The notes beneath the pieces are model-generated. The model ran no database searches, was not told where the DNA came from, and worked only from the letters and a program-made list of their open reading frames with translations. The position numbers and the translations under genes are program-made. Positions 14,529 through 30,665 of a stretch of 64,000 nucleotides of DNA are shown here, one piece after another (within the stretch, counting starts at the first letter, position 1; the number at the start of each line of letters is the position of its first letter). Source of the DNA: Armatimonadota bacterium (GTDB lineage: Bacteria > Armatimonadota > Zipacnadia > UBA1398 > JAKPQA01); NCBI GenBank assembly GCA_029547025.1, contig JAKPQA010000035.1, positions 62,001-126,000 on the forward strand, read 5' to 3'.

Positions 14529-15278
14529 ATGAGCAGTGATCCGCGCGGGAACAAGCTGGCAGGCATGGTGGCCCTCGTCACGGGCGGAGGCCGGGGCATA
14601 GGGCGCGCCATCGCCATCGCCTACGCCAATGAAGGGGCCGATGTGGCGGTCTGCGCGCGTTCGGCCGGTGAGCTCGACCGTGTGGTCGAGCAGATCGAGG
14701 CCCGCGGCCGGCGCGGCGCGGCGTTGGTCGGCGACCTCGCTAATCCGCGCGACGCCGAGAGGATCGCCTCGTGCGCTGCAGCGGCTCTGGGGCCCATCGA
14801 CGTGCTCGTCAACAACGCCGGCGTGTTCTGGACTCGCCCGTTCATCGAGTCGACCGCCGACGAGCTGGACCGGATGCTGGCCGTCAACGTGCGCGGCCCC
14901 TTCGCCATGATGAAGGCCGTTCTCCCGGCAATGCTCGAGCGGGACAGCGGGATCATCATCAACGTGGCGTCTCTCGCCGGACAGAAGGGCTACGAGGAAC
15001 AGTCCGCCTACTGCGCGTCCAAGCATGCACTACTCGGGATGACTAAGGCCCTCGCCCTCGAACTGGCGGGAACGGGCGTTCGCGTGTCGGCCCTCTCGCC
15101 CGGTGGCGTGGACACGACCCTAATCGCCCAGGCTCGGCCCGAGCTGGACCGAACCACATGGATGGACGCCGACGATGTGGCACAGCTCGCCGTGCTACTG
15201 GCCTCGCTTCCGCCCAAGATGGCTATCGACGAGATCACCGTGCGCCGCAGAGCCGCGGCGCCCACTTCCTTCCGCTAG
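14529..15278 (+). CDS. Short-chain dehydrogenase/reductase (SDR)
   Basis: A 249-residue classical SDR. The cofactor-binding TGGGRGIGRA motif is near residue 18 and NNAG near residue 95. Catalytic Ser lies in VASLAGQ and the Y-x3-K pair in SAYCASKHALLG. The N-terminal pattern resembles FabG-type 3-oxoacyl-ACP reductases, but the C-terminus (ITVRRRAAAPTSFR) is atypical, so substrate assignment would be guesswork. ATG 14529 gives the expected FabG-like length. It is divergent from the MFS gene and faces the end of the third PilT gene. Confidence 0.9.
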   Translation: MSSDPRGNKLAGMVALVTGGGRGIGRAIAIAYANEGADVAVCARSAGELDRVVEQIEARGRRGAALVGDLANPRDAERIASCAAAALGPIDVLVNNAGVFWTRPFIESTADELDRMLAVNVRGPFAMMKAVLPAMLERDSGIIINVASLAGQKGYEEQSAYCASKHALLGMTKALALELAGTGVRVSALSPGGVDTTLIAQARPELDRTTWMDADDVAQLAVLLASLPPKMAIDEITVRRRAAAPTSFR

Positions 15279-15467: not shown

Positions 15468-16979
15468 CTAGAGCCGTGGCGGACCCTCAGCCGTCGGCTC
15501 CTCGTCCGGCAGCTGGGGTCTGGGCTGCGGCCTGGGGCGAGCAGGTTGCGGCGGCGGTTGCGGCGGTCGTGCCGGTTGGGGAGCCGCCTGCGGCTGCGGC
15601 GGCTGCTGAGGCCGTGGCTGCGGCGGCTGCCCGCCCAGTTGTGGCGGCCCCTCGGCCGTCGCCCGCTGCGGTGGCTGAGGCTGTGGTTGCGATGGCCCGC
15701 CCAGCCTCGGTGGTCCCTCGGCCGTGGCGCGCTGCGGCGCGGCACCCGCCGGTCCTCCCGGCCTCGGCGCGGGCGCCACGCCAGGGCGCTGCTGCTGGGG
15801 GCCTGCCCCACGGTGAAACTGCACCGGCACCACCTGACGCGTCTGCTGCTGGACCGCCGACGTCGCGGCACCGGTGGTCTGCTGCTCGCCGGCCTCCTCT
15901 TCCTCTCCGCCGCGGAGGATCTCCTCAAGTTCCTGCGGCCGTGAGCTCTTCTCGAGGGCCGTCTCCAGAGTGATCATGTTCGCCTTGACCAGCGCCGCAA
16001 GGTGCTGGTCTAGGAGCATCATGCCCTGCTTTGAGCCGGTCTCTATCGTCCCCGGGATCTGGTGTGTCTTGGCCTCACGAATCAGATTTCGGATCGGCGG
16101 CGTGGCCACCATGATCTCCCATGCGGCCAGGCGGCCCACGCCGTCCTTGCGCTTCACCAGGACCTGTGAGATCACCCCAACCAGGTTAACCGAGAGCTGC
16201 ATGCGGACCTGTTGCTGCTGGTACGTGGGGAACACGTCGATGATGCGGTCCACCGTCTGGACCGCGTCGGTCGTGTGCAGTGTGGCGAACACCAGGTGGC
16301 CCGTCTCTGCGGCGGTGATGGCTGCCGAGATGGTCTCCAGGTCGCGCATCTCACCCACCAGGATGACGTCCGGGTCCTCACGCAGTACGCGCTTCAGGGC
16401 TTCGGGGAACGACAGGGTGTCGATCCCGAGCATGCGCTGGTTCACGATGGCCTTGTGATCCTCGTGGACGAACTCGATCGGATCCTCCATCGTCATGATG
16501 TGGACCGGATATGTATGGTTGATGTAGTTGATCATGGCCGCCAACGTGGTGGACTTGCCGCACCCGGTGGGGCCGGTCACCAGCACCAGGCCGCGGGGCC
16601 GGTCGCACATGTGCTGCACGATCGGGGGCATCCGCAGCTCTTCCATCGTGGGAATCGTGAAGGGGATCGCGCGGAACGTGCACGCCGTCGACATGCGCTG
16701 GCGCATGAAGTTGACACGGAACCGCGCGATCCCTGGGATCTCGTATGCGAAGTCAAGCTCCCAGTCCCTGTGGAACCGTTCGAGCTGCGCCGGGTCGCAA
16801 GCCGCGAAGGCGATATCCTCGACATCCTTGGTGTTCTCGAGCTTGGGCAGTTCCGTCCGGCGCACCAGCTCGCCATGGATCCGCATCATGGGGGGAGCGC
16901 CCTCATGCAACAGCAGGTCGGAGCCCTCTCTCTTCACCAGATCGGTTAGGAGTTCATCGATGTAAGCCAAGTCCGTCAC
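15468..16979 (-). CDS. pilT: PilT-type retraction ATPase with long Pro/Gln-rich C-terminal tail
   Basis: Hexameric secretion-superfamily ATPase that powers type IV pilus retraction. Residues 1-350 are a full PilT: Walker A GPTGCGKST, Asp box MTMEDPIEFVH, Walker B VILVGEMRD, His box TLHTTDAVQT, and NLIREAKTHQIP, matching the AIRNLIRE retraction motif. Residues about 370-503 form a low-complexity tail of Pro, Gln, Ala and Arg. It contains three copies of TAEGPPRL or TAEGPPQL, the last at the extreme C-terminus. Typical PilT is about 345-370 residues, so the tail is an addition. Starts at GTG 16979; third of three tandem paralogues on this strand. Confidence 0.92.
   Translation of the reverse strand: MTDLAYIDELLTDLVKREGSDLLLHEGAPPMMRIHGELVRRTELPKLENTKDVEDIAFAACDPAQLERFHRDWELDFAYEIPGIARFRVNFMRQRMSTACTFRAIPFTIPTMEELRMPPIVQHMCDRPRGLVLVTGPTGCGKSTTLAAMINYINHTYPVHIMTMEDPIEFVHEDHKAIVNQRMLGIDTLSFPEALKRVLREDPDVILVGEMRDLETISAAITAAETGHLVFATLHTTDAVQTVDRIIDVFPTYQQQQVRMQLSVNLVGVISQVLVKRKDGVGRLAAWEIMVATPPIRNLIREAKTHQIPGTIETGSKQGMMLLDQHLAALVKANMITLETALEKSSRPQELEEILRGGEEEEAGEQQTTGAATSAVQQQTRQVVPVQFHRGAGPQQQRPGVAPAPRPGGPAGAAPQRATAEGPPRLGGPSQPQPQPPQRATAEGPPQLGGQPPQPRPQQPPQPQAAPQPARPPQPPPQPARPRPQPRPQLPDEEPTAEGPPRL
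15471..15725 (-). repeat. Region with three TAEGPP(R/Q)L repeats in the PilT tail
   Basis: Copies are encoded at 15702-15725, 15636-15659 and 15471-15494, within a Pro/Gln-rich low-complexity stretch. Two copies are preceded by QRA and followed by GG; the last abuts the stop codon. They are in-frame protein repeats; spacing is uneven, so this is not a CRISPR or intergenic array. Confidence 0.8.
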
Positions 16980-17020
16980 ACCCTCTCAGGCCGCCGGCGA
17001 CACGCGCGCGGTGCGATGGG

Positions 17021-18118
17021 CTAAGTCGCCAGAGTCGCGCCGCCCAGGTGCGAACCCAGAACACGCTGCGCACGCTGCTGGAAATCCCGTGGGTTGCTGC
17101 ACTTCTGCAGGGCCTGTTCGTAGTCGACGACCTGATCCTTCACCAGGCCGATCAGGTACTGGTCGAGAGGCACCATTCCCAGTTCGAGGCCGGTCTGGAT
17201 GATAGTGGGAACCTGGTGGGTCTTCGCCTCACGGATCAGTGTCTTCACCGCTGGAGTGCCCAGCATGATCTCGAAGGCGGGCACGCGCCCCTTCCCGCCC
17301 TTGCGCTGCAGAAGCTGCTGGCAGACGATCCCCTCGATCGTCGCCGCCAGCTGTGCGCGGATCTGCTCTTGCTGTTCCGGTGGGAACACGTCGATGATAC
17401 GGTCGATGGTCTGGGCCGCGTCGGTCGTGTGCAATGTGGCGAACACCAGGTGCCCGGTCTCGGCCGCGGTGATCGCTAGCTGAATGGTCTCCAGATCGCG
17501 CATCTCCCCGACCAGAATGACATCCGGGTTCTGGCGCAGGCAGTGCTTCAGCGCCTCGGCAAAACTGTGTGTATCCTCACCAAGCTCCCTCTGGTTCAGG
17601 CACGACAACTTGTCAAAGTGCAGGAACTCCAGCGGGTCCTCGATGGTGATGATGTGCGCCGCCTTGTTCTCGTTGATGTAGTCCACCATGGCCGCCAGTG
17701 TGGTCGACTTGCCGCTCCCGGTGGGACCCGTCACCAGCATCAGGCCTCGCGGGCGCATGGCGAGGTACTTGAGAACCTGGGGAAGTCCCATCTCATCGAT
17801 GGTCTTCACCTGGATGGGAATCAGCCGCAACACGCCTCCGACGTAGCCCTTTTGCTGGAATACGTTGACCCGGAAGCGCGCCACATCGGGAAGATAGTAG
17901 GAGACGTCCATCTCATGCGTCTCCTCGAACACTCGCTGGCGCTCCGGGCTCAAGAGACCATACATGATGCGCTTGGTGTCCTCAGGCCGCAGGACCGGCA
18001 GATCCAGGCGGGTCAGGTCGCCATCCACGCGGATGATCGGTGGATTACCCACCTTCAAGTGGAGGTCGGATCCACCCCGGTCCCGCAACGTGCGCAAGAG
18101 CGGATCAATCTCGGCCAC
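17021..18118 (-). CDS. pilT: PilT-type twitching-motility ATPase
   Basis: A 365-residue PilT-family ATPase that matches the family's usual length. It has Walker A GPTGSGKST, ITIEDPLEFLH, Walker B VILVGEMRD, TLHTTDAAQT and the C-terminal TLIREAKTHQVP motif that marks retraction ATPases. GTG 18118 is preceded by GAGGTG at six bases. It lies 87 bases after the PilU-like gene and 41 bases before the tailed PilT gene. Of the three paralogues this is the most ordinary PilT. Confidence 0.94.
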   Translation of the reverse strand: MAEIDPLLRTLRDRGGSDLHLKVGNPPIIRVDGDLTRLDLPVLRPEDTKRIMYGLLSPERQRVFEETHEMDVSYYLPDVARFRVNVFQQKGYVGGVLRLIPIQVKTIDEMGLPQVLKYLAMRPRGLMLVTGPTGSGKSTTLAAMVDYINENKAAHIITIEDPLEFLHFDKLSCLNQRELGEDTHSFAEALKHCLRQNPDVILVGEMRDLETIQLAITAAETGHLVFATLHTTDAAQTIDRIIDVFPPEQQEQIRAQLAATIEGIVCQQLLQRKGGKGRVPAFEIMLGTPAVKTLIREAKTHQVPTIIQTGLELGMVPLDQYLIGLVKDQVVDYEQALQKCSNPRDFQQRAQRVLGSHLGGATLAT

Positions 18119-18205
18119 GTGTCACACCTCGCTGGTCGATGAATGTGGCGGGACCCGGGACCCGGGCGCCAGCTGCGGCGCCGGCCAAGGGTTGGGGGTG
18201 CCGCC

Positions 18206-19279
18206 CTACTCGGGCTTGTGCCGACGCACCATCTGCCGAAGCTCCGTGAGATTGCCGGCATTGGCCAACGCCACTTCCTCGGTGATCAGGCCCTCCTGGA
18301 AGTAGCGGCAGAGGCACTGGTTCATGGTCTGCATGCCCCAGAACCCGCCCTCGTCGATCGCCGAGTACATCTCCGCCACCCGGCCCTCTTCGATGTACTT
18401 GGCCACCGTGGGCGTCACGATCATGATCTCGATAGCGCCCACCCGCCGGGACATGTCGGCCGTCGGCACCAGTTTCTGCGAGATGACGCCCTGCAGGGAC
18501 TGCGACAGGCGCATACAGATCTGGTCCTTCGCATGGGGCGGAAACATGTTCAGAATGCGTTCGAGGGTCTCGGCCGCTGACCTCGTGTGTACCGTCGAGA
18601 ACACCAAGTGGCCCGTCTCCGCGGCCGCCAGGGCCACCTCGAATGTCTCCACGTCGCGCATCTCGCCGATGAGGATCACATCCGGGGCCTGGCGCAACAC
18701 GGTGCGCAGGGCCGCACTGAAGTTCTCGGTGTCGATGTGCACCTCGCGCTGGCTGATGATGCTCTTCTTGTCGCGGTGAATGAACTCCAGCGGGTCCTCG
18801 ATGGTGACGATGTGGCAGTAACGGGCCTCGTTGATCTCGTTGAGCATGGCCGCGATGGTCGTCGACTTCCCGCAGCCCGTCGGGCCCGTCACCAGAATCA
18901 GACCCTGGCGCCGGCGTGACAGGTCCTTCAGGACCTCTGGTAACCCGAGCTGGTCCACCGACTTGACCTCGAGGGGGATGAGGCGCAACACCAGCGCAAT
19001 GCTGCCGCGTTGCTGGTAGATGTTGACGCGGAACCGCACCAGATTGGGCACCGTGATGCCCAGGTCCATCTCGTGGCACCGCTCGAAGATCTTGATCTGC
19101 TCCGGCGACATCATCTCGTAGGCCAGAGCCTTGGTGTCCTCGGCGGAGAGCACGGGCAGATCCATCTGGCGAACCTGTCCGCGGACCTTGATACAGGGGC
19201 GGTTGGCCTCTTTGAGGAAGATGTCGGAGGCGTTCTGATCCACCGCCGTCCTCACCACAAGGCCGAAATCCAGTCCCAT
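18206..19279 (-). CDS. PilT/PilU-like ATPase lacking the AIRNLIRE motif
   Basis: A 357-residue secretion ATPase of the PilT family. It has Walker A GPTGCGKST, VTIEDPLEFIH, Walker B VILIGEMRD and STVHTRSAAET as the His box. Where PilT carries AIRNLIRE, this protein reads TVAKYIEEGRVAEMYSAI and then EGGFWGMQTMNQ, a pattern closer to PilU and PilU-like paralogues that assist retraction. It ends in a basic RRHKPE tail. It is first in the three-gene unit; no pilin or PilB gene is present in the window. Confidence 0.88.
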   Translation of the reverse strand: MGLDFGLVVRTAVDQNASDIFLKEANRPCIKVRGQVRQMDLPVLSAEDTKALAYEMMSPEQIKIFERCHEMDLGITVPNLVRFRVNIYQQRGSIALVLRLIPLEVKSVDQLGLPEVLKDLSRRRQGLILVTGPTGCGKSTTIAAMLNEINEARYCHIVTIEDPLEFIHRDKKSIISQREVHIDTENFSAALRTVLRQAPDVILIGEMRDVETFEVALAAAETGHLVFSTVHTRSAAETLERILNMFPPHAKDQICMRLSQSLQGVISQKLVPTADMSRRVGAIEIMIVTPTVAKYIEEGRVAEMYSAIDEGGFWGMQTMNQCLCRYFQEGLITEEVALANAGNLTELRQMVRRHKPE

Positions 19280-19419: not shown

Positions 19420-20157
19420 CTACCTCTGGTGCCGCCGGCGCACCAGGGCCATGGTGACCATCGTCAGCGACCCGGCCGCCAGCACCGCACACAACACCAG
19501 CGCGACCCAGACCACTGCAGGGCGCCCCGAACGCTCAGGCCGGGCCGCGGCTGCGCCCGCCGCCACGGCCTCGGGTGGCGTGGCGGACTCGTCCTCCGAG
19601 ACCAGGCCCCGCGATAGCTCCGCCGGCCGCGTCGCCGATCGGCCCATCATCTCCACGTAGATGCCATACGAGTGTTCCGACGGCACGCTCAGGAAGGTCG
19701 CGCTGACGAGGTCGTTCCGCCATCGTCCCGTGGGTCCCTTGTAGTAGAAAGGGTCTCGCGGAAGAAAAGTCAAATGCACGGCATCATAACGCCGGAAAAC
19801 GAAACAAAAGACCTCCCAGGGCAGTGAGCCCCGTCCGCTCTGGATGGCACCGTCGCACACGCAACGGAACGTGGCGCATCCATGCAACACGTCGCTCGGA
19901 CCGGCCTCCACGGGAGGGGAGTACGGCCACCCGCCCTCGTTCGCGAGCTGGCGGAAGTCACGAGTGGCCTGGCTGGGTCCCACGGGAGAAGGATAGGTAA
20001 CGACGATCTCGTCCTTCCCCCCCTCACCGCCCACCACCTCGATCCAGACGCACTCGGTAGCGGGAAAGGCGGTGGTTGACACGGCTAGCCACGAGGAGAG
20101 CGCGAGTGCGCTGACGACGGATCGGCGCGCCAGACCCACGGTCTGCATCCAGTCCAT
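19420..20157 (-). CDS. Secreted protein with C-terminal membrane anchor, unknown function
   Basis: A 245-residue protein from ATG 20157. An N-terminal signal peptide (about residues 8-32, ending near TTAFPA) and a single helix near the C-terminus followed by RRRHQR suggest an extracytoplasmic domain anchored in the inner membrane. Four cysteines lie in the ectodomain near CATFRCVCDG and EVFCFVFRR, so disulfides are possible. An Ala/Glu-rich linker precedes the anchor. I recognise no family. The frame is open further upstream, through the tRNA gene, but that part is not credible coding. It is upstream of the pil genes on the same strand. Confidence 0.6.
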   Translation of the reverse strand: MDWMQTVGLARRSVVSALALSSWLAVSTTAFPATECVWIEVVGGEGGKDEIVVTYPSPVGPSQATRDFRQLANEGGWPYSPPVEAGPSDVLHGCATFRCVCDGAIQSGRGSLPWEVFCFVFRRYDAVHLTFLPRDPFYYKGPTGRWRNDLVSATFLSVPSEHSYGIYVEMMGRSATRPAELSRGLVSEDESATPPEAVAAGAAAARPERSGRPAVVWVALVLCAVLAAGSLTMVTMALVRRRHQR

Positions 20158-20316: not shown

Positions 20317-20391
20317 TGGTGGAGCCGGTGGGATTTGAACCCACGGCCTCTTCCATGCCAAGGAAGCGCGCTCCCCCTGCGCCACGGCCCC
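20317..20391 (-). tRNA. tRNA-Ala (anticodon GGC)
   Basis: A 75-base cloverleaf reads on the minus strand. Acceptor stem GGGGCCG pairs with CGGCTCC (one G-T). The D arm has GCGC/GCGC and the anticodon stem CTTCC/GGAAG. The loop is TTGGCAT with GGC at 34-36. The T arm has GTGGG/CCCAC and the loop TTCAAAT. The 3' CCA is encoded. Confidence 0.96.
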
Positions 20392-21745: not shown

Positions 21746-21862
21746 GGTCCCTCCATGATGCCATAGGTGGGGCCACGCTGCGGAATCCGGAGCCGTCGAT
21801 GGCGCCAGAGGAGTCTAGAATCGGGGGGGCGCGGGCCTCTGCCCCCGCTGGAGGGCTCGACG

Positions 21863-23164
21863 ATGGGCACATGCCGTTCCCTGCTGCTTCCGGCCGCCGT
21901 GGCCGCACTGCTCATCCTCCATGGCTGTGGTGGCACGAACCGGACCACCAACCCGTTCCCCGAGGTGGCCCCTCCCGGCACTGTCGTGCGCTCGGCCAAG
22001 GCGCGCAATACGGCGCCCGTGGTCTCCGCGGCGGACATGGCGGCGCTGGCAGCGGGGAACCGGGAGTTCGCCTGTGCCCTCTATCAGCGGCTGGCCCGCG
22101 GCGACGGCAACCTTGTGTTCTCGCCGCTGAGCATCTCGACCGCGCTGGCGATGGCATACGCCGGCGCCCGGGGCGACACCGCGACCCAGCTCGCCGATGC
22201 CCTTCACTTCAGGCTGCCGGCCGAACGACTCCACGCGGCATTCAACAGGCTCGATCTGTCGCTCGAGCCCACGGGAGCGGATGGGGGCAAGCAACTCACT
22301 CTCAACGTCCTCAATGCCCTATGGACCCAGCAGGGCTGGTCCTACCTCGACAGCTTCCTCGACACCCTCTCGGTGAACTACGACGCGGGGATGCACGAGA
22401 TGGACTTCGCGAACGATCGCGAGTCGGCCCGCCAGGCCATCAACCAGTGGGTCAGTGAGGCGACCGAGGGGCGCATCCCCGAGCTCATCCCCGCCGGCGC
22501 CCTCGATGAGAGCGTCAGGATGATCCTCACCAACGCCATCTACTTCCGCGCGTACTGGGCCTCGCAGTTCGACGAGGCAGCAACGCGGGACCAGGCCTTC
22601 CATCGGCTGGATGGGACGCAGGTTACCGTGAAGATGATGCACCAGACCCAGTCCTTGGGCTACCGACGCGGGGACGGCTACCGCGCGGTGAGCCTCCCCT
22701 ACTTCGCCGACAAGCAGTCGATGGTCGTGGTCCTGCCCGACGAGGGTGCCTTCGGCCGTGTCTCCGACGCCGTCGATGGCGACTGGGTGGCAGCACTGCG
22801 GGCAGGTCTGGAGGCCACGCCGGTCGATCTCGGGTTCCCGCGGTTCGAGTTCGCCGCGTCGGCGAGCCTGGCCGACGTGCTCCAGGCGCTTGGGGCGACC
22901 GATGCCTTCTCGGCCGAGCGGGCGGACTTCTCGGGCATCACCGGCCACCGCGATCTCTACATCCAGCAGGTACGGCACAAGGCGTTCATCTCGGTGAACG
23001 AGAAGTGGACCGAGGCCGCCGGCGCCACCGATGTAGAGTTCGGCGAGACGTCGGTGCCCATGGCGGAGCCGGTCACCGTCGACCGGCCGTTCATCTTCTT
23101 CATCGTGGACAACGGCACCGGGGCGGTCCTGTTCGTGGGCCGGGTGCTGGACCCGACAGCGTAG
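21863..23164 (+). CDS. Serpin 1, secreted lipoprotein protease inhibitor
   Basis: A 433-residue serpin with an N-terminal signal and lipobox LILHGC, so it is probably lipid-anchored. GGAGGG precedes ATG 21863 by seven bases. Serpin landmarks include NLVFSPLSISTALAMAYAGARG, ILTNAIYFRAYWASQFD, and the C-terminal block DRPFIFFIVDNGTGAVLFVGRV. The reactive loop starts NEKWTEAAGATDVEF. Aligned by length to alpha-1-antitrypsin, Trp takes the P15 position where Gly is usual, and P1 is near the Thr-Ser of GETSVP. Serpins trap proteases by a suicide mechanism. First of three tandem paralogues. Confidence 0.93.
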   Translation: MGTCRSLLLPAAVAALLILHGCGGTNRTTNPFPEVAPPGTVVRSAKARNTAPVVSAADMAALAAGNREFACALYQRLARGDGNLVFSPLSISTALAMAYAGARGDTATQLADALHFRLPAERLHAAFNRLDLSLEPTGADGGKQLTLNVLNALWTQQGWSYLDSFLDTLSVNYDAGMHEMDFANDRESARQAINQWVSEATEGRIPELIPAGALDESVRMILTNAIYFRAYWASQFDEAATRDQAFHRLDGTQVTVKMMHQTQSLGYRRGDGYRAVSLPYFADKQSMVVVLPDEGAFGRVSDAVDGDWVAALRAGLEATPVDLGFPRFEFAASASLADVLQALGATDAFSAERADFSGITGHRDLYIQQVRHKAFISVNEKWTEAAGATDVEFGETSVPMAEPVTVDRPFIFFIVDNGTGAVLFVGRVLDPTA

Positions 23165-26034: not shown

Positions 26035-26679
26035 GTGGCCGTTCTGGCGCTGGCGGCCTACCTGCGAATCGCGCCCGATGGCAGTGGCATCATCGTCCCC
26101 GGCCTCAGCCGGCACCCGGCGCCGCCACTGTGTGCCATGAGGTTGCTGACGGGTATCGATTGCCCCGGCTGCGGGCTCACGCGCAGCATCGTCGCGCTGA
26201 CGCACGGCCAACTCGCCCTCGGGTTCCGGTGCCACCATCTGGGCCCGGCCGTGTTCGTGCTGCTGGCCGCCCAGATACCCTACCGGCTGTACTACCTGCG
26301 CACCAAGAAGCCGGGGCCGTCGCGGCGAACCGCGCGTTTGCTGTGCATCGTTGGGGCCGTGCTGGCCGCGGCCATCCTGCTCGACTGGGCGATACGCCTG
26401 CCCGGCCAGATCGCGCACCCGCGCCCATCGGTGCTGTTCAGGCGGAGCAAGACGGACGGGATCGGCCGACCGGTACCGGAGTCTGCGGCCCCATTGAGCA
26501 GGCCGCACCGGGGCCGTGCGCACCGATCCAGCCCCCCGCAGACGTGGCCCTCTACTTCGCCTTGGCCTTCTGGCCCGCCACAAACGGCCCGGTGTGTAGC
26601 CCACGCTGCTCGGCCAGTTCGGCGAGGTCGTAGCCGTCGATCGACGGTTCGAGGCCCGTCTCCTCGAGCGGGACGTTGA
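26035..26679 (+). CDS. DUF2752 membrane protein
   Basis: The DUF2752 hallmark CPGCGLTRS follows LLTGID, and three hydrophobic helices are visible. GTG 26035 starts inside the first helix. The frame continues upstream without ATG/GTG/TTG to a CTG at 25942 that has GGGGGAGG about nine bases before it, so the true start may be that CTG. The domain ends near LPGQIAHP. The last 70 residues are Arg/Ser/Pro-rich and run antisense across the start of the next gene's coding region, so a frameshift or an unreal tail is likely. Function of DUF2752 is unknown. Confidence 0.6.
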   Translation: MAVLALAAYLRIAPDGSGIIVPGLSRHPAPPLCAMRLLTGIDCPGCGLTRSIVALTHGQLALGFRCHHLGPAVFVLLAAQIPYRLYYLRTKKPGPSRRTARLLCIVGAVLAAAILLDWAIRLPGQIAHPRPSVLFRRSKTDGIGRPVPESAAPLSRPHRGRAHRSSPPQTWPSTSPWPSGPPQTARCVAHAARPVRRGRSRRSTVRGPSPRAGR

Positions 26680-27073
26680 GGCGCATGCCGGTCTCCTCGG
26701 AGTACACGCCGAGCCCCAGCGTCTCGACCGTGTCGATGATGCGCTGCTTCTTGAACACGAAGGCCAGCGTCTCCAGACCCTCGCGGCAGACCAGCGGGAT
26801 GATGACCGTCGCATCCTGGTAGATCGGCTTCGTGGCCGGATGCGTCTGGCGGTTGCGCACGAGGCCGCGGTTGCACGAGATGCCGCAGAGCTCCCGGTGG
26901 ATGACGTTGTAACCATCAGCCTCGAGCCGGTCGGCCAGGGCGTCGAGCGGATCGCGGCCACCCAGGCCGCAGTAGCGGACGCAGTCGTTGCAGGTCCAGA
27001 CGACGATCCGGTCGTCATCGTTGAGCTGCTCGACCAGCTCGTTGTAGGTCAGTTTGAGTAGAGAGACGACCAC
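26552..27073 (-). CDS. MetV-like zinc/iron-sulfur protein, second copy
   Basis: A 173-residue protein from GTG 27073, with AGGAG upstream. The N-terminus has WTCNDCVRYCGLGG, then a further Cys pair region LCGISCNRG. This pattern (CxxCxxxC-x2-GG followed by a distal Cys) resembles the N-terminal cysteine cluster of MetV, the partner of methylenetetrahydrofolate reductase MetF in acetogens (MTHFR C-terminal family). The C-terminal 60 residues (GLGVYSEETGMRLNVP onward) are unlike MetV. It is last in the redox operon. No metF is in the window, so a methylene-THF role is inference only. Confidence 0.6.
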   Translation of the reverse strand: MVVSLLKLTYNELVEQLNDDDRIVVWTCNDCVRYCGLGGRDPLDALADRLEADGYNVIHRELCGISCNRGLVRNRQTHPATKPIYQDATVIIPLVCREGLETLAFVFKKQRIIDTVETLGLGVYSEETGMRLNVPLEETGLEPSIDGYDLAELAEQRGLHTGPFVAGQKAKAK

Positions 27074-27094
27074 CCGGACTCCTCCAACCCGCCG

Positions 27095-27487
27095 CTACGA
27101 GGCCGCGGCGCCGGCCTTGGGCCGGGACTTGGGGACACTCGACATCAGGCCCGTGGTCTTGCAGGCCTTGACGCACTTCCGGTCGCGGAAGCGCTGGACG
27201 ACGGCCATCCAGCCCACGTCGCAGGCGAGGACGATCGTCGCGGTCTGACGGCCGCTCATGGGGGCATCGAAGACGTAGTCGCGGTTGCAGGCGGTGATGG
27301 TGACCACTTCGTCGGTGACCTCGAATCCGTCGGCGCGGAGGCGGCGGGCCATCTCCTCCATGAACGCCTCGCCGCCGGTCTCGCATACGCGCACGCACGT
27401 GTTGCACGTCACCAGCGCGACCTTCTCGTCCGGCTCGAGCTGGGCCACGATCTCCTCATAGGGGACGGCCTCGGTCTGGGCTCCCAT
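27095..27487 (-). CDS. MetV-like zinc/iron-sulfur protein, first copy
   Basis: A 130-residue protein with VTCNTCVRVCETGGEAFMEE near residue 27, then ITACNRDYV and VLACDVGW. CxxCxxxC-x2-GG and the distal Cys match the cofactor-binding N-terminus of MetV-type proteins. Two more cysteines (RKCVKAC) come near the C-terminus. It is paralogous to the next gene, which lies 21 bases downstream, and starts 3 bases after the ferredoxin stop. Tight spacing suggests co-translation as part of one complex. Confidence 0.62.
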   Translation of the reverse strand: MGAQTEAVPYEEIVAQLEPDEKVALVTCNTCVRVCETGGEAFMEEMARRLRADGFEVTDEVVTITACNRDYVFDAPMSGRQTATIVLACDVGWMAVVQRFRDRKCVKACKTTGLMSSVPKSRPKAGAAAS

Positions 27488-27490
27488 CGC

Positions 27491-28033
27491 CTAGCTCTCC
27501 TTCTTCGCAACGAACCGTCGCAGGCAGGTGCCCACCTCAAGAATCCGCCGGGCCGTGCGCTCGCGGCGCTCGGCCTCGTAGTCCTCGACCTCGGCGAAGG
27601 TCAGGGCCTTCATGGGGCACGCCTCGACACATGCCGGTTCCTTGCCCGCGGCCACACGCTCGGCGCACTGGTCGCACTTGATCGCGTGCCGGTCTTCCTC
27701 ACTGAACTTGGGGATACCGAAAGGGCACACGATGTTGCACAGCGTGCAGCCGATGCACTTGTCGTCCTCGACCACAACGGCGCCGGTCTCGGTGCGATGG
27801 ATGGCGCCCGCCGGGCAGATCAGCTCGCAGGGCGCCTCGGCGCAGTGATTACACACCATCTGCACGGGGTAGATGCGGTTCACCCACTCAATGTAGTTGC
27901 AGGCAACCCAGTCATGCTCCCGCTTGCAGGCCTCGATGCACTCCTCGCACCCGAGGCATCGGTTCGGCACCAGGTAGACTCGCTTCAACTCGGGTCCCTC
28001 ATTCGAGCTCCGCTCCAGGGGGCGGAGCAGCAT
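27491..28033 (-). CDS. Four-cluster 4Fe-4S ferredoxin-like electron-transfer subunit
   Basis: A 180-residue HycB/CooF-type protein with 16 cysteines in four sets: CLGCEECIEAC, CNHCAEAPCELIC, CIGCTLCNIVC, and CDQC with a distal CVEAC. Four [4Fe-4S] clusters are therefore expected. Such subunits wire catalytic partners in hydrogenases, formate dehydrogenases and heterodisulfide-reductase-like enzymes. The ATG at 28033 lacks a clear ribosome site; TTG 27988, with GAGGGA six bases upstream, would give the typical MKRVYL opening. It lies seven bases after the NuoG/HoxU-like gene. Confidence 0.88.
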   Translation of the reverse strand: MLLRPLERSSNEGPELKRVYLVPNRCLGCEECIEACKREHDWVACNYIEWVNRIYPVQMVCNHCAEAPCELICPAGAIHRTETGAVVVEDDKCIGCTLCNIVCPFGIPKFSEEDRHAIKCDQCAERVAAGKEPACVEACPMKALTFAEVEDYEAERRERTARRILEVGTCLRRFVAKKES

Positions 28034-28039
28034 GGCGCA

Positions 28040-28789
28040 CTACCTCATGGCCTGTCGGAGAACCGCGCCGATCGCCTGTCGCCGGCAGGCTGGGCACCGG
28101 GTCAACAGGCCTTCGGTGACCTCCGTCTCTGTCTTGAGCCGGTCGATCATCCGCTGGGGGGCGAAGTAGGCCCCACATTCGGAGCAGGCCTGTAGCTCGA
28201 GCTCGGTGTTGAAGACGCGCAGGACGCGCTTGTTCCCCATGTCCTCGATGGCGATGCAGCCCGTTGGGCACACGCGGGCGCACGCGCCGCAACCGATGCA
28301 CACATCGGACTGGATCTCGAAGGGCGTGGCCACTTTCCGGTCCACTCCCCGATGGATGAAGCTGATGGCCGGTGTGCCGATCTTCTGCTGGCAAGCCCGC
28401 GTGCAGAGTCCGCAGAGGATGCACTCCATCCCGCGGCCCTCGAAGCGCACGTTCTGGACCCCCAGACGCTCGGCCAGCTCGCGGATGGGCTTCGAGTCCG
28501 GGCACTGGGCCACGAGCAACTCGGCCGTGGTCCGACGGTACTCGCGCAGGTCGTCGGTATCGGTGCGCACGACCATGTCCGGCTCCACGGGACGCGTGCA
28601 GGAGCTCTCGATGCGCTTCCGGCCCCGCTGTTCGACCTCGACCACGCACAGCCGGCACGCGCCATAGGGCGTCAGCCCGGCATGATGGCACAGGGTCGGG
28701 ATGTCGATGCCGAGCTTTCGAGCGGCCTCCAGCACCGTGGAGCCCTCGGCCACTTCCACTGCATTTCCGTCGATCTCGATACGGATCAT
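28040..28789 (-). CDS. NuoG/HoxU-like 2Fe-2S and 4Fe-4S subunit, without catalytic domain
   Basis: A 249-residue protein starting at ATG 28789, with GGAGG eight bases upstream. The N-terminus is a plant-type [2Fe-2S] domain (CHHAGLTPYGACRLC, then SSCTRP). Two [4Fe-4S] sites follow, CILCGLCTRAC and CIGCGACARVC. The His-Cys3 cluster motif usual in NuoG and HydA is missing, and so is the hydrogenase H-cluster domain. The C-terminus instead has CSEC and CPAC pairs that look like a zinc ribbon. It probably relays electrons between the NuoF-like subunit and the downstream ferredoxin or MetV-like proteins. Confidence 0.85.
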   Translation of the reverse strand: MIRIEIDGNAVEVAEGSTVLEAARKLGIDIPTLCHHAGLTPYGACRLCVVEVEQRGRKRIESSCTRPVEPDMVVRTDTDDLREYRRTTAELLVAQCPDSKPIRELAERLGVQNVRFEGRGMECILCGLCTRACQQKIGTPAISFIHRGVDRKVATPFEIQSDVCIGCGACARVCPTGCIAIEDMGNKRVLRVFNTELELQACSECGAYFAPQRMIDRLKTETEVTEGLLTRCPACRRQAIGAVLRQAMR

Positions 28790-28811
28790 CGCCAGGGCCT
28801 CCACCAGAGGC

Positions 28812-30665
28812 CTACTCCTTCACTACCGCGTCGAAGCGGCACGCGTCGAGGCACGCGCCGCACTTGATGCACCGCTCCGGGTCGATCACATGGGGCTGCT
28901 TGCGCTCCCCCGTAATGCACTGCTGTGGGCACGCCCGGGCGCATGCGGTACAGCCCGTGCACTTCTCGGCGTCGATGTGGAACGTGATGAGTGCCGTGCA
29001 CACCGCCGCCGGGCAGCGCTTCTCATGTATGTGAGCATCGAACTCGTGGCGGAAGTGCCGGATGCTGCTCAGTACCGGGTTGGCGGCCGTCTGGCCGAGC
29101 CCACACAGTGATGCGCCTTTGACCGTGCGGCCGAGTTGGCCGAGCAGGTCGATGTCGGCGTCGGAGCCCTCGCCGGACGCGATGCGGTCGAGCACCTCCA
29201 GCATCCGGGGCACGCCTTCACGGCACGGCGTGCACTTGCCGCACGACTCGGACTTCAGGAAACGGAGGTAGTAGCGGGCCACATCCACGATGCAGGTGCG
29301 GTCATCCATCACGATCAGGCCGCCCGAGCCCATGATGGAGCCCACCTGCGCCAGGCTCTCGTAGTCGACACGCACATCGAAGAGCGATGCGGGGATGCAG
29401 CCGCCCGAGGGGCCGCCCGTCTGCACCGCCTTGATCGTTCGGCCCGGCTTCGGGCCGCCACCCACTTCGAAGACGATCTCGTTCAGCGTCATGCCTACGG
29501 GCACCTCAACCAGGCCCGTGTTCTGGACCTCGCCGACGAGAGAGAAGATCTTGGTCCCGCGACTGCGCTCGTAGCCGATCTCGCTGAACCAGGCCGCGCC
29601 GTGGCGAATGATGAGCGGTATGTTGGCCCAAGTCTCGACGTTGTTGATGTTGGTGGGTTTCCCGAACAGGCCGCGCTGCGCCGGAAACGGTGGCCGGGGC
29701 CGCGGTTCGCCGGCGAAGCCCTCGATGGATGCGATGAGAGCGGTCTCCTCGCCGCAGACGAAGGCACCCGCGCCGGTGACGATGTCCAGATCGAACGAGA
29801 ACCCCGTGCCGAGGATGTCCTCACCGAGTAAGCCCATCTCGCGAGCGACCTCGATGGCCAGCGCCGCGTTGCGCACAGCCAAAGGGTACTCGGCCCGGAT
29901 GTACATGATCCCTCGGCTGGCTCCTATGGCGTACCCGCCAATGGCCATACCCTCGATGACCGAGTGAGGATTACCCTCGAGCAGCGCTCGGTCCATGAAC
30001 GCGCCGGGGTCGCCCTCGTCGGCATTGCAGATGACGTACTTCTGGTCGCCCTCGGCCCTGCGGCACAGCTCCCACTTCATGCCCGTCGGGAAACCCGCAC
30101 CGCCACGGCCGCGAAGCGCGGACTGCTTCACTTCCTCCAGCACCGCCTCGGGCGTCATCTCGGTCAGCGCGCGCGCCAGAGCCGCATAGCCGTCCACGGC
30201 GAGGTAGTCGGCGACCTGCAGGGGGTCGATATGGCTCGCGTGCTTCAGCAGGCGCCGTTCCTGATGGGCGTAGAACGGGATGTCTCTCTCGAGCGCGATG
30301 GGCTCGTTGGTGGCGGGATGGCGGTACAGCACCGATTCGGGGATCGGCTGGCCATTCACGGCGGCTTCCACGATGGCGGGTGCCTGATCCGGCGTGGCGC
30401 CCCTGAAGAACAGCCCGTCACCGTAGGCGACCACCACGGGGGCGCACTGGCAGAAGCCATGGCAGCCTGTCGTCTTGATCTGCACCGAGCCCTCAAGGCC
30501 CGCATCGGCCACGGCTCGGCGCAATGCGGCGGCCACCTTGGCGCTGCCGGCGGCGTTGCAGCCCGGCCCATCGCAGACCGCGATCACGGTGGCCGCAGCC
30601 TCGTGGGCCTCGAGCGCCTGCTTCCGGCGGGCGTCGAGATCCGTCACTCCGGCGAGACGACTCAT
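28812..30665 (-). CDS. nuoF: NuoF/HydB-type NADH dehydrogenase subunit
   Basis: A 617-residue flavoprotein oxidising or reducing NAD(H). Order: a thioredoxin-like [2Fe-2S] domain (CDGPGC, GCHGFC), then the NuoF core with FMN/NADH loops GRGGAGFPTGMKW and GAGAFVCGEETALI. Next is the [4Fe-4S] motif SCGKCTPCREG, and finally two ferredoxin clusters (CTGCTACARAC, CIKCGACLDAC). This layout equals HydB of electron-bifurcating hydrogenases and HndC, not the shorter respiratory NuoF. It overlaps nuoE by four bases. With no HydA present, the electron acceptor must be another protein. Confidence 0.95.
   Translation of the reverse strand: MSRLAGVTDLDARRKQALEAHEAAATVIAVCDGPGCNAAGSAKVAAALRRAVADAGLEGSVQIKTTGCHGFCQCAPVVVAYGDGLFFRGATPDQAPAIVEAAVNGQPIPESVLYRHPATNEPIALERDIPFYAHQERRLLKHASHIDPLQVADYLAVDGYAALARALTEMTPEAVLEEVKQSALRGRGGAGFPTGMKWELCRRAEGDQKYVICNADEGDPGAFMDRALLEGNPHSVIEGMAIGGYAIGASRGIMYIRAEYPLAVRNAALAIEVAREMGLLGEDILGTGFSFDLDIVTGAGAFVCGEETALIASIEGFAGEPRPRPPFPAQRGLFGKPTNINNVETWANIPLIIRHGAAWFSEIGYERSRGTKIFSLVGEVQNTGLVEVPVGMTLNEIVFEVGGGPKPGRTIKAVQTGGPSGGCIPASLFDVRVDYESLAQVGSIMGSGGLIVMDDRTCIVDVARYYLRFLKSESCGKCTPCREGVPRMLEVLDRIASGEGSDADIDLLGQLGRTVKGASLCGLGQTAANPVLSSIRHFRHEFDAHIHEKRCPAAVCTALITFHIDAEKCTGCTACARACPQQCITGERKQPHVIDPERCIKCGACLDACRFDAVVKE

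Follow-up and report, generated by a model that had tools for sequence, protein, structure and literature searches.

An ordered run of PilT-family ATPase genes and its upstream neighbour in Armatimonadota

Why would a bacterium encode three PilT-family ATPases one after another, with no other pilus gene beside them? This question is raised by a 64,000-nucleotide stretch of DNA (the window) from an Armatimonadota bacterium (GenBank assembly GCA_029547025.1, contig JAKPQA010000035.1, 208 kb long and here called C55, positions 62,001 to 126,000 of the forward strand). On the minus strand of the window lie three ATPase genes, U (18206..19279), T2 (17021..18118) and T3 (15468..16979), preceded by a gene, UP (19420..20148), whose product carries predicted membrane segments. 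The original prediction, made from the sequence of the window, had recognized the three ATPases and suggested that they provide several retraction modes or ATPase partners on one pilus machine; UP, a conserved gene upstream of U that has no named family, was overlooked. On balance we favour the reading that UP-U-T2-T3 is an ancient Armatimonadota set, which provides several specialised ATPases for the retraction of type IVa pili whose machines are encoded at other places in the genome.

Three PilT-family paralogues

All three open reading frames (ORFs) are present as predicted, and all belong to the PilT/PilU family. By the whole-protein score of TIGR01420, whose curated cut-off is 319.1 bits, U (357 amino acids) reaches 454.9 bits, T2 (365 amino acids) 479.3 bits and T3 (503 amino acids) 467.3 bits. 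The Walker A sequence GPTG[CS]GKST, the Asp box, the Walker B sequence GEMRD and the His box are intact in each of them. The C-terminal AIRNLIRE motif is degenerate in U, where it reads TVAKYIEE (IEE replacing IRE); it reads AVKTLIRE in T2, which is degenerate in the middle of the motif, and PIRNLIRE in T3. The sequence IEEGRVAEMY of U stands in the place of LIREAKTHQ of T2 and T3.

These differences are conserved. When 28 U, 24 T2 and 24 T3 proteins were compared and a column was called group-fixed if it is at least 85% constant within a group and differs between groups, eight such columns were found. Seven of them separate U from T2 and T3, and one separates T3. Among the seven is the Arg of LIRE, present in 100% of the T2 and T3 proteins (24 each) and replaced by Glu in 93% of the 28 U proteins, which bears out the predicted lack of AIRNLIRE in U.

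In the window, U and T2 share 46% identical residues, U and T3 41%, and T2 and T3 51%. The median identities to their respective orthologues are higher (56% for U, 58% for T2 and 56% for T3). A quick tree of 104 rows contains a U clade of 26 rows, a T2 clade of 19 and a T3 clade of 19, with support of 98, 99 and 99, respectively, in the Shimodaira-Hasegawa-like approximate likelihood ratio test (SH-aLRT). In another quick tree, built from 99 rows and including 20 complete triads selected from those available, clade support is 99 for U, 96 for T3 and 94 for T2; both quick trees were computed without bootstrap. The position of a gene in a triad matches its clade, the first gene falling in U and the second in T2 in 20 of 20 triads, and the third in T3 in 19 of 20. 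The exception is L253, whose third gene falls in T2. A careful tree, which is unrooted, consists of 56 rows picked from the 99 and omits some long branches, supports U at 100/99, T2 at 100/99 and T3 at 99/96. In this tree T2, T3, six proteobacterial PilT proteins and three relatives form one clade of 27 rows (98/95), with U outside it. The U, T2 and T3 clades each span several Armatimonadota families.

A recent duplication yielding near-identical copies, named in the original prediction as the outcome that would count against it, is ruled out by the three separate clades together with the lower identity within the trio (41-51%) than to orthologues. By their sequences, U, T2 and T3 are old, distinct paralogues and not recent copies, and the proposal of several retraction modes or ATPase partners fits the conserved differences among them.

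Could the three genes still be plainly redundant, i.e. surplus PilT copies of overlapping function that are retained by dosage? Several PilT genes occur in other bacteria, such as Geobacter sulfurreducens (PMC5065972), Neisseria (PMC10790696) and Fimbriimonas ginsengisoli (PMC4072686). T2 and T3 are told apart by a single group-fixed column, so that a division of labour between these two would rest on the tree. Against redundancy, seven of the eight columns distinguish U from the other two and the three proteins fall in distinct clades, and we consider this explanation improbable.

The predicted Pro/Gln-rich tail of T3 is present as well. It comprises 130 residues (15471..15860, minus strand), and Pro and Gln make up 47% of the final 143 residues of the protein. 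Among 24 T3 proteins the tail is private to this genome: the 23 orthologues have lengths of 355-425 amino acids versus 503 in the window, and 0 of 23 has a tail this long, which rules it out as a conserved feature of T3. Three copies of the sequence TAEGPP[RQ]L occur in it on the minus strand, at 15702..15725 (copy 1), at 15636..15659 (copy 2) and, at the extreme C terminus, at 15471..15494 (copy 3). Comparison of copy 1 with copy 2 over 12 codons shows five silent changes and a single amino-acid replacement, and all six changes between copy 1 and copy 3, over the eight codons that they share, are silent. The silent changes suggest selection on the peptide. Elsewhere in the genome the sequence matches once (contig C295), which is chance level, because the reversed-motif control also gives one match. 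Tails of at least 70 residues past the alignment anchor are found in 16 of 28 U, 1 of 24 T2 and 5 of 24 T3 proteins; tails are thus common on U and shift between paralogues. That every triad carries a tail is ruled out by locus L052, which has none.

The run in related genomes and the gene upstream of it

Triads of this kind are present in relatives. Three adjacent PilT-family genes were counted by hand in 14 of the 41 genomes of a search for relatives, the genome of the window included; G031, with two such genes at a contig end, was not counted as having a triad. Outside the class to which the window belongs, with one genome taken per family, a triad is found in 13 of 32 genomes and a pair in 9; this count excludes 11 of the listed matches, at 403 bits or less, and all matches outside the list, and it takes G106, whose third gene is cut by the contig end (L262), as a pair. 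Of the 20 triads placed in the tree, 19 have the gene order U, T2, T3. Because the run recurs across families, the adjacency of the three genes is not due to chance. No description of such a run in Armatimonadota was found in the titles or abstract openings of the papers listed by searches of open-licence literature.

The downstream part of the run varies. In 46 loci with at least 4.6 kb of sequence downstream of U, U is followed by T2-T3 (14 loci), by T2-T3 and C8, a gene described below (13), by a divergent PilT gene called D and C8 (13), by C8 alone (3), by D (1) or by none of these (2). In many members of the class, U with D replaces U-T2-T3. D forms a long branch with support of 100, has a four-residue insert following EIM in its C-terminal domain, and lies beside U in class relatives (L057, L059-L061, L075, L076 and L079-L089). 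The pair T2-T3 occurs with no adjoining U in L257, L258 and L261, and UP-U occurs with no T2-T3 in L264. The gene set therefore consists of two separable halves.

The four genes of the set would be transcribed in the order UP, U, T2, T3, with gaps of 140 bp (UP-U), 87 bp (U-T2) and 41 bp (T2-T3). UP, whose start codon was assigned by rule, encodes 242 amino acids with an N-terminal signal-like segment, a predicted periplasmic alpha/beta domain of about 150 residues, a Pro/Ala linker and a probable C-terminal membrane helix. Its relatives share the N-terminal hydrophobic segment, the domain of about 150 residues, the linker and the C-terminal membrane-like helix, and often end in an Arg-rich sequence. 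The UP of the window was found at an E value of 2.2e-13 by a hidden Markov model of 11 homologues built without it. Its AlphaFold2 model has a predicted local distance difference test score (pLDDT) of 79, and eight of the ten 10-residue blocks in residues 31-130 score at least 92. In the family searches UP matched no named family (best Pfam E value 0.18 at 11.4 bits, with a cut-off of 30; 0 NCBIfam rows). Structure comparison likewise gave no confident match for its fold: for the periplasmic metal-binding PA4063/ZrgA fold the best Foldseek E value was 1.8e-3 with TM scores of 0.26/0.42, and the VIA Z score of 6.6 for UP versus ZrgA is equal to that of an unrelated chain.

Of 51 loci that have at least 900 bp of upstream sequence, 30 carry UP in front of U; some of the 51 are near-identical (L095/L096 and L063/L099), and the UP scores of two are weak (L249 at 22 bits and L250 at 37 bits). 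It was found in 131 of 201 Armatimonadota genomes versus 1 of 100 Actinomycetota genomes, where the match covers 46 residues of the C-terminal membrane end. Of the 23 genomes in the 32-family set that encode UP, 20 place it 0-600 bp upstream of a PilT-family gene on the same strand, a placement that would occur by chance in about 4 of 10,000 cases for a single UP. The counts of 30/51 and 20/23 are partly circular, as the UP models began from ORFs noticed beside these genes and 11 of the 20 linked genomes supplied rows to the models. Among UP-bearing genomes that contributed no rows, 9 of 12 have UP linked to a PilT-family gene by hand count. Misses are possible in these genome searches, in which scoring was limited to 14 or 29 first-look candidates per genome for UP and to 9 for C8.

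Pilus machines elsewhere and the C8 neighbour

The predicted absence of other pilus genes from the neighbourhood holds for what was scanned. The matches to PF00437 on the 208-kb contig are U, T2 and T3 only, and 0 of 10 other window proteins chosen for the Pfam scan, the only ones so scanned, matched a pilus family. T3 is the last gene of the run, because a short-chain dehydrogenase ORF on the opposite strand ends at 15278. The upstream neighbour of the set is a tRNA-Ala (ggc) gene found by ARAGORN (20317..20391, minus strand), which is preceded by a promoter-like site at 20438-20409.

Pilus genes are located on other contigs of the same genome, where the original prediction had proposed to look for them. 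According to Pfam, contig C115 (L073) encodes PilM_2, a secretin of 1195 amino acids, PilB (T2SSE and MshEN), PilT and PilC (T2SSF). PilM and the secretin are separated by two proteins without a Pfam match, which we take to occupy the places expected for PilN and PilO. Contig C262 (L072) encodes PilB, PilT, PilC, a prepilin peptidase and a pilin with an N_methyl match, and further T2SSE proteins are found on other contigs. With at least two PilB-PilT-PilC clusters in the genome, the single machine assumed earlier is not established. The PilT proteins encoded beside PilB belong to clades other than U, T2 and T3.

The plurality of machines admits another explanation, in which U, T2 and T3 each serve a separate filament system, for instance one per PilC platform or pseudopilus. 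The two or more clusters, the additional T2SSE proteins and the ability of T2-T3 and UP-U to part in the genome (as in L257, L258, L261 and L264) are consistent with it. The recurrence of the adjacency and order of the trio across families speaks against it, as does the fact that the examined PilB clusters already hold a PilT of their own; separate systems therefore seem to us unlikely.

Another possibility is that UP-U-T2-T3 powers a machine other than a type IV pilus, in which PilT-type rings act on UP, and in relatives on C8, replacing PilC. C8, a membrane protein of Armatimonadota that lacks annotation, has eight Cys residues that are almost invariant (CW-x4-C-x7-C-x8-CW-x5-C-x-C ... C-x2-C) and a conserved His-Gln-Arg; its Cys and His are invariant across 20 rows. 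It was found in 186 of 201 Armatimonadota genomes. The AlphaFold2 model of C8 has a pLDDT of 81, and Foldseek gave 0 matches with an E value below 1. In 16 loci, e.g. L212:7258-7650, C8 is followed at a distance of 0.3-0.5 kb by the gene of a small protein whose N terminus looks prepilin-like by eye (RGNWSLIGLLVSVAII).

The genes chiefly conserved beside these ATPases are UP and C8, the latter lying downstream in 29 of the 46 loci described above. In addition, no PilB-like ORF was seen in the 13 class triad loci examined, and the PilC-like cluster includes none of these loci. All this agrees with a non-pilus machine. C8, however, is found downstream of PilT-family genes in much of the class of the window, whereas in most other loci it adjoins efp- and acc-like genes (by eye; an Efp-like cluster is present in 25 of 41). 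In the genome of the window its copy is on another contig (C277, L165:7694-8872). T2 and T3 retain the motif and the clade of pilus PilT, and L057, from a class relative, has a PilB-like ORF on the opposite strand, 84 bp beyond U-D-C8. A machine of this kind is thus quite improbable. C8 was dropped as a candidate member of the window's set, being on another contig here and beside PilT-family genes in 4 of 40 loci outside the class.

Two features of the window outside the gene set were also noted. A bacterial serpin is encoded at 21767-23164 (PF00079, E value 1.4e-106). The region 26552-30665 encodes a Complex1_51K (NuoF-like) protein and a 4Fe-4S protein together with other, small ORFs that contain Cys, and is perhaps an electron-bifurcating or hydrogenase-type module.

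A possible set of retraction motors

If UP-U-T2-T3 does supply retraction ATPases to pili, the functions of its members can be proposed as follows. T2 and T3, placed with proteobacterial PilT in the tree and retaining LIRE, would form PilT-type hexamers acting on PilC platforms. U, with intact ATPase motifs and an altered LIRE region, would form an accessory ring that depends on PilT, in the way PilU does. UP, predicted to be anchored in the inner membrane and to expose a domain on the periplasmic side, may connect U with the envelope components of the machine, a link that we infer solely from the gene linkage and the predicted topology. A more elaborate version, which we regard as speculative and rather unlikely, is a four-part unit: UP, a new family, would recruit the AIRNLIRE-less U ring, this ring would stack with the T2 and T3 rings, and exchange of rings would alter force or speed. 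Lineage-specific disordered tails, such as that of T3 with its TAEGPP[RQ]L copies, would then be docking arms.

The role suggested for U invites comparison with PilU, a PilT-dependent ATPase that has no AIRNLIRE (described in part of PMC6762196). When U and proteobacterial PilU were constrained to one clade, the approximately unbiased (AU) test gave p values of 0.706 (94 rows) and 0.633 (99 rows), and the constrained tree exceeds the quick free tree by 7-10 log-likelihood units, while the free trees place U and PilU apart. PilU-like is a fair description of the motif of U and not a proven orthology, which the AU tests and the structure scores given below neither show nor exclude.

Several observations weigh against the favoured reading. 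U is joined with PilU in no free tree, though the AU tests do not reject the constraint, and U scores 331.9 bits on PilT of P. aeruginosa (3jvu) versus 276.3 bits on PilU (9n32), on which a beta-proteobacterial PilU taken as control scores 492.8 bits. Only one of the eight group-fixed columns distinguishes T2 from T3. Neither triad nor pair is found in 10 of the 32 families. In 21 of the 51 loci, among them L052 from the taxonomic order to which the window belongs, UP was not found in front of U, and the genome search gave a UP match in 0 of 2 genomes of that order (G001 and G002), which indicates that U can do without UP. In 16 of the 21 UP-less loci, examined for a signal or membrane ORF of another shape upstream of U, no consistent candidate was seen. 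Both PilB-PilC clusters examined contain their own PilT, so that the trio is tied to no given machine. UP and U stand 140 bp apart. Finally, the genome is a 6.3-Mb draft, 96% complete, with an estimated contamination of 4.8%.

Known systems offer partial parallels. The pilT-pilU tandem of proteobacteria, seen here in eight beta-proteobacterial loci (L265-L272), also consists of adjoining PilT-family ATPases, one with and one without AIRNLIRE. The window differs from it in having three genes, in U being first and not last, in U forming its own clade and in the linked UP. PilT and PilU are reported to be separate homohexamers that act jointly and that both bind PilC in a two-hybrid assay (PMC6821130). 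Neisseria has PilT, PilU and PilT2, three PilT-family paralogues for one pilus (PMC10790696 and PMC6762196). Geobacter sulfurreducens has four PilT genes, PilT1-4, whose functions are not all equal; by their locus tags in the passage concerned (PMC5065972) they lie at four separate loci, unlike the single run of the window. Fimbriimonas ginsengisoli, of the same phylum, is reported to have six pilT genes, a count given in its passage (PMC4072686) with no triad, order, subfamilies or upstream gene.

PilU-type ATPases act only through PilT. A phylum in which an AIRNLIRE-less ATPase is often encoded beside two PilT-type ATPases provides a natural comparison set for the pairing of rings, and UP, often encoded upstream, is a candidate envelope anchor. 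The many pilT genes of this phylum include several that form an old, ordered set and are not scattered duplicates. These observations suggest that Armatimonadota retract their pili with several specialised motors.

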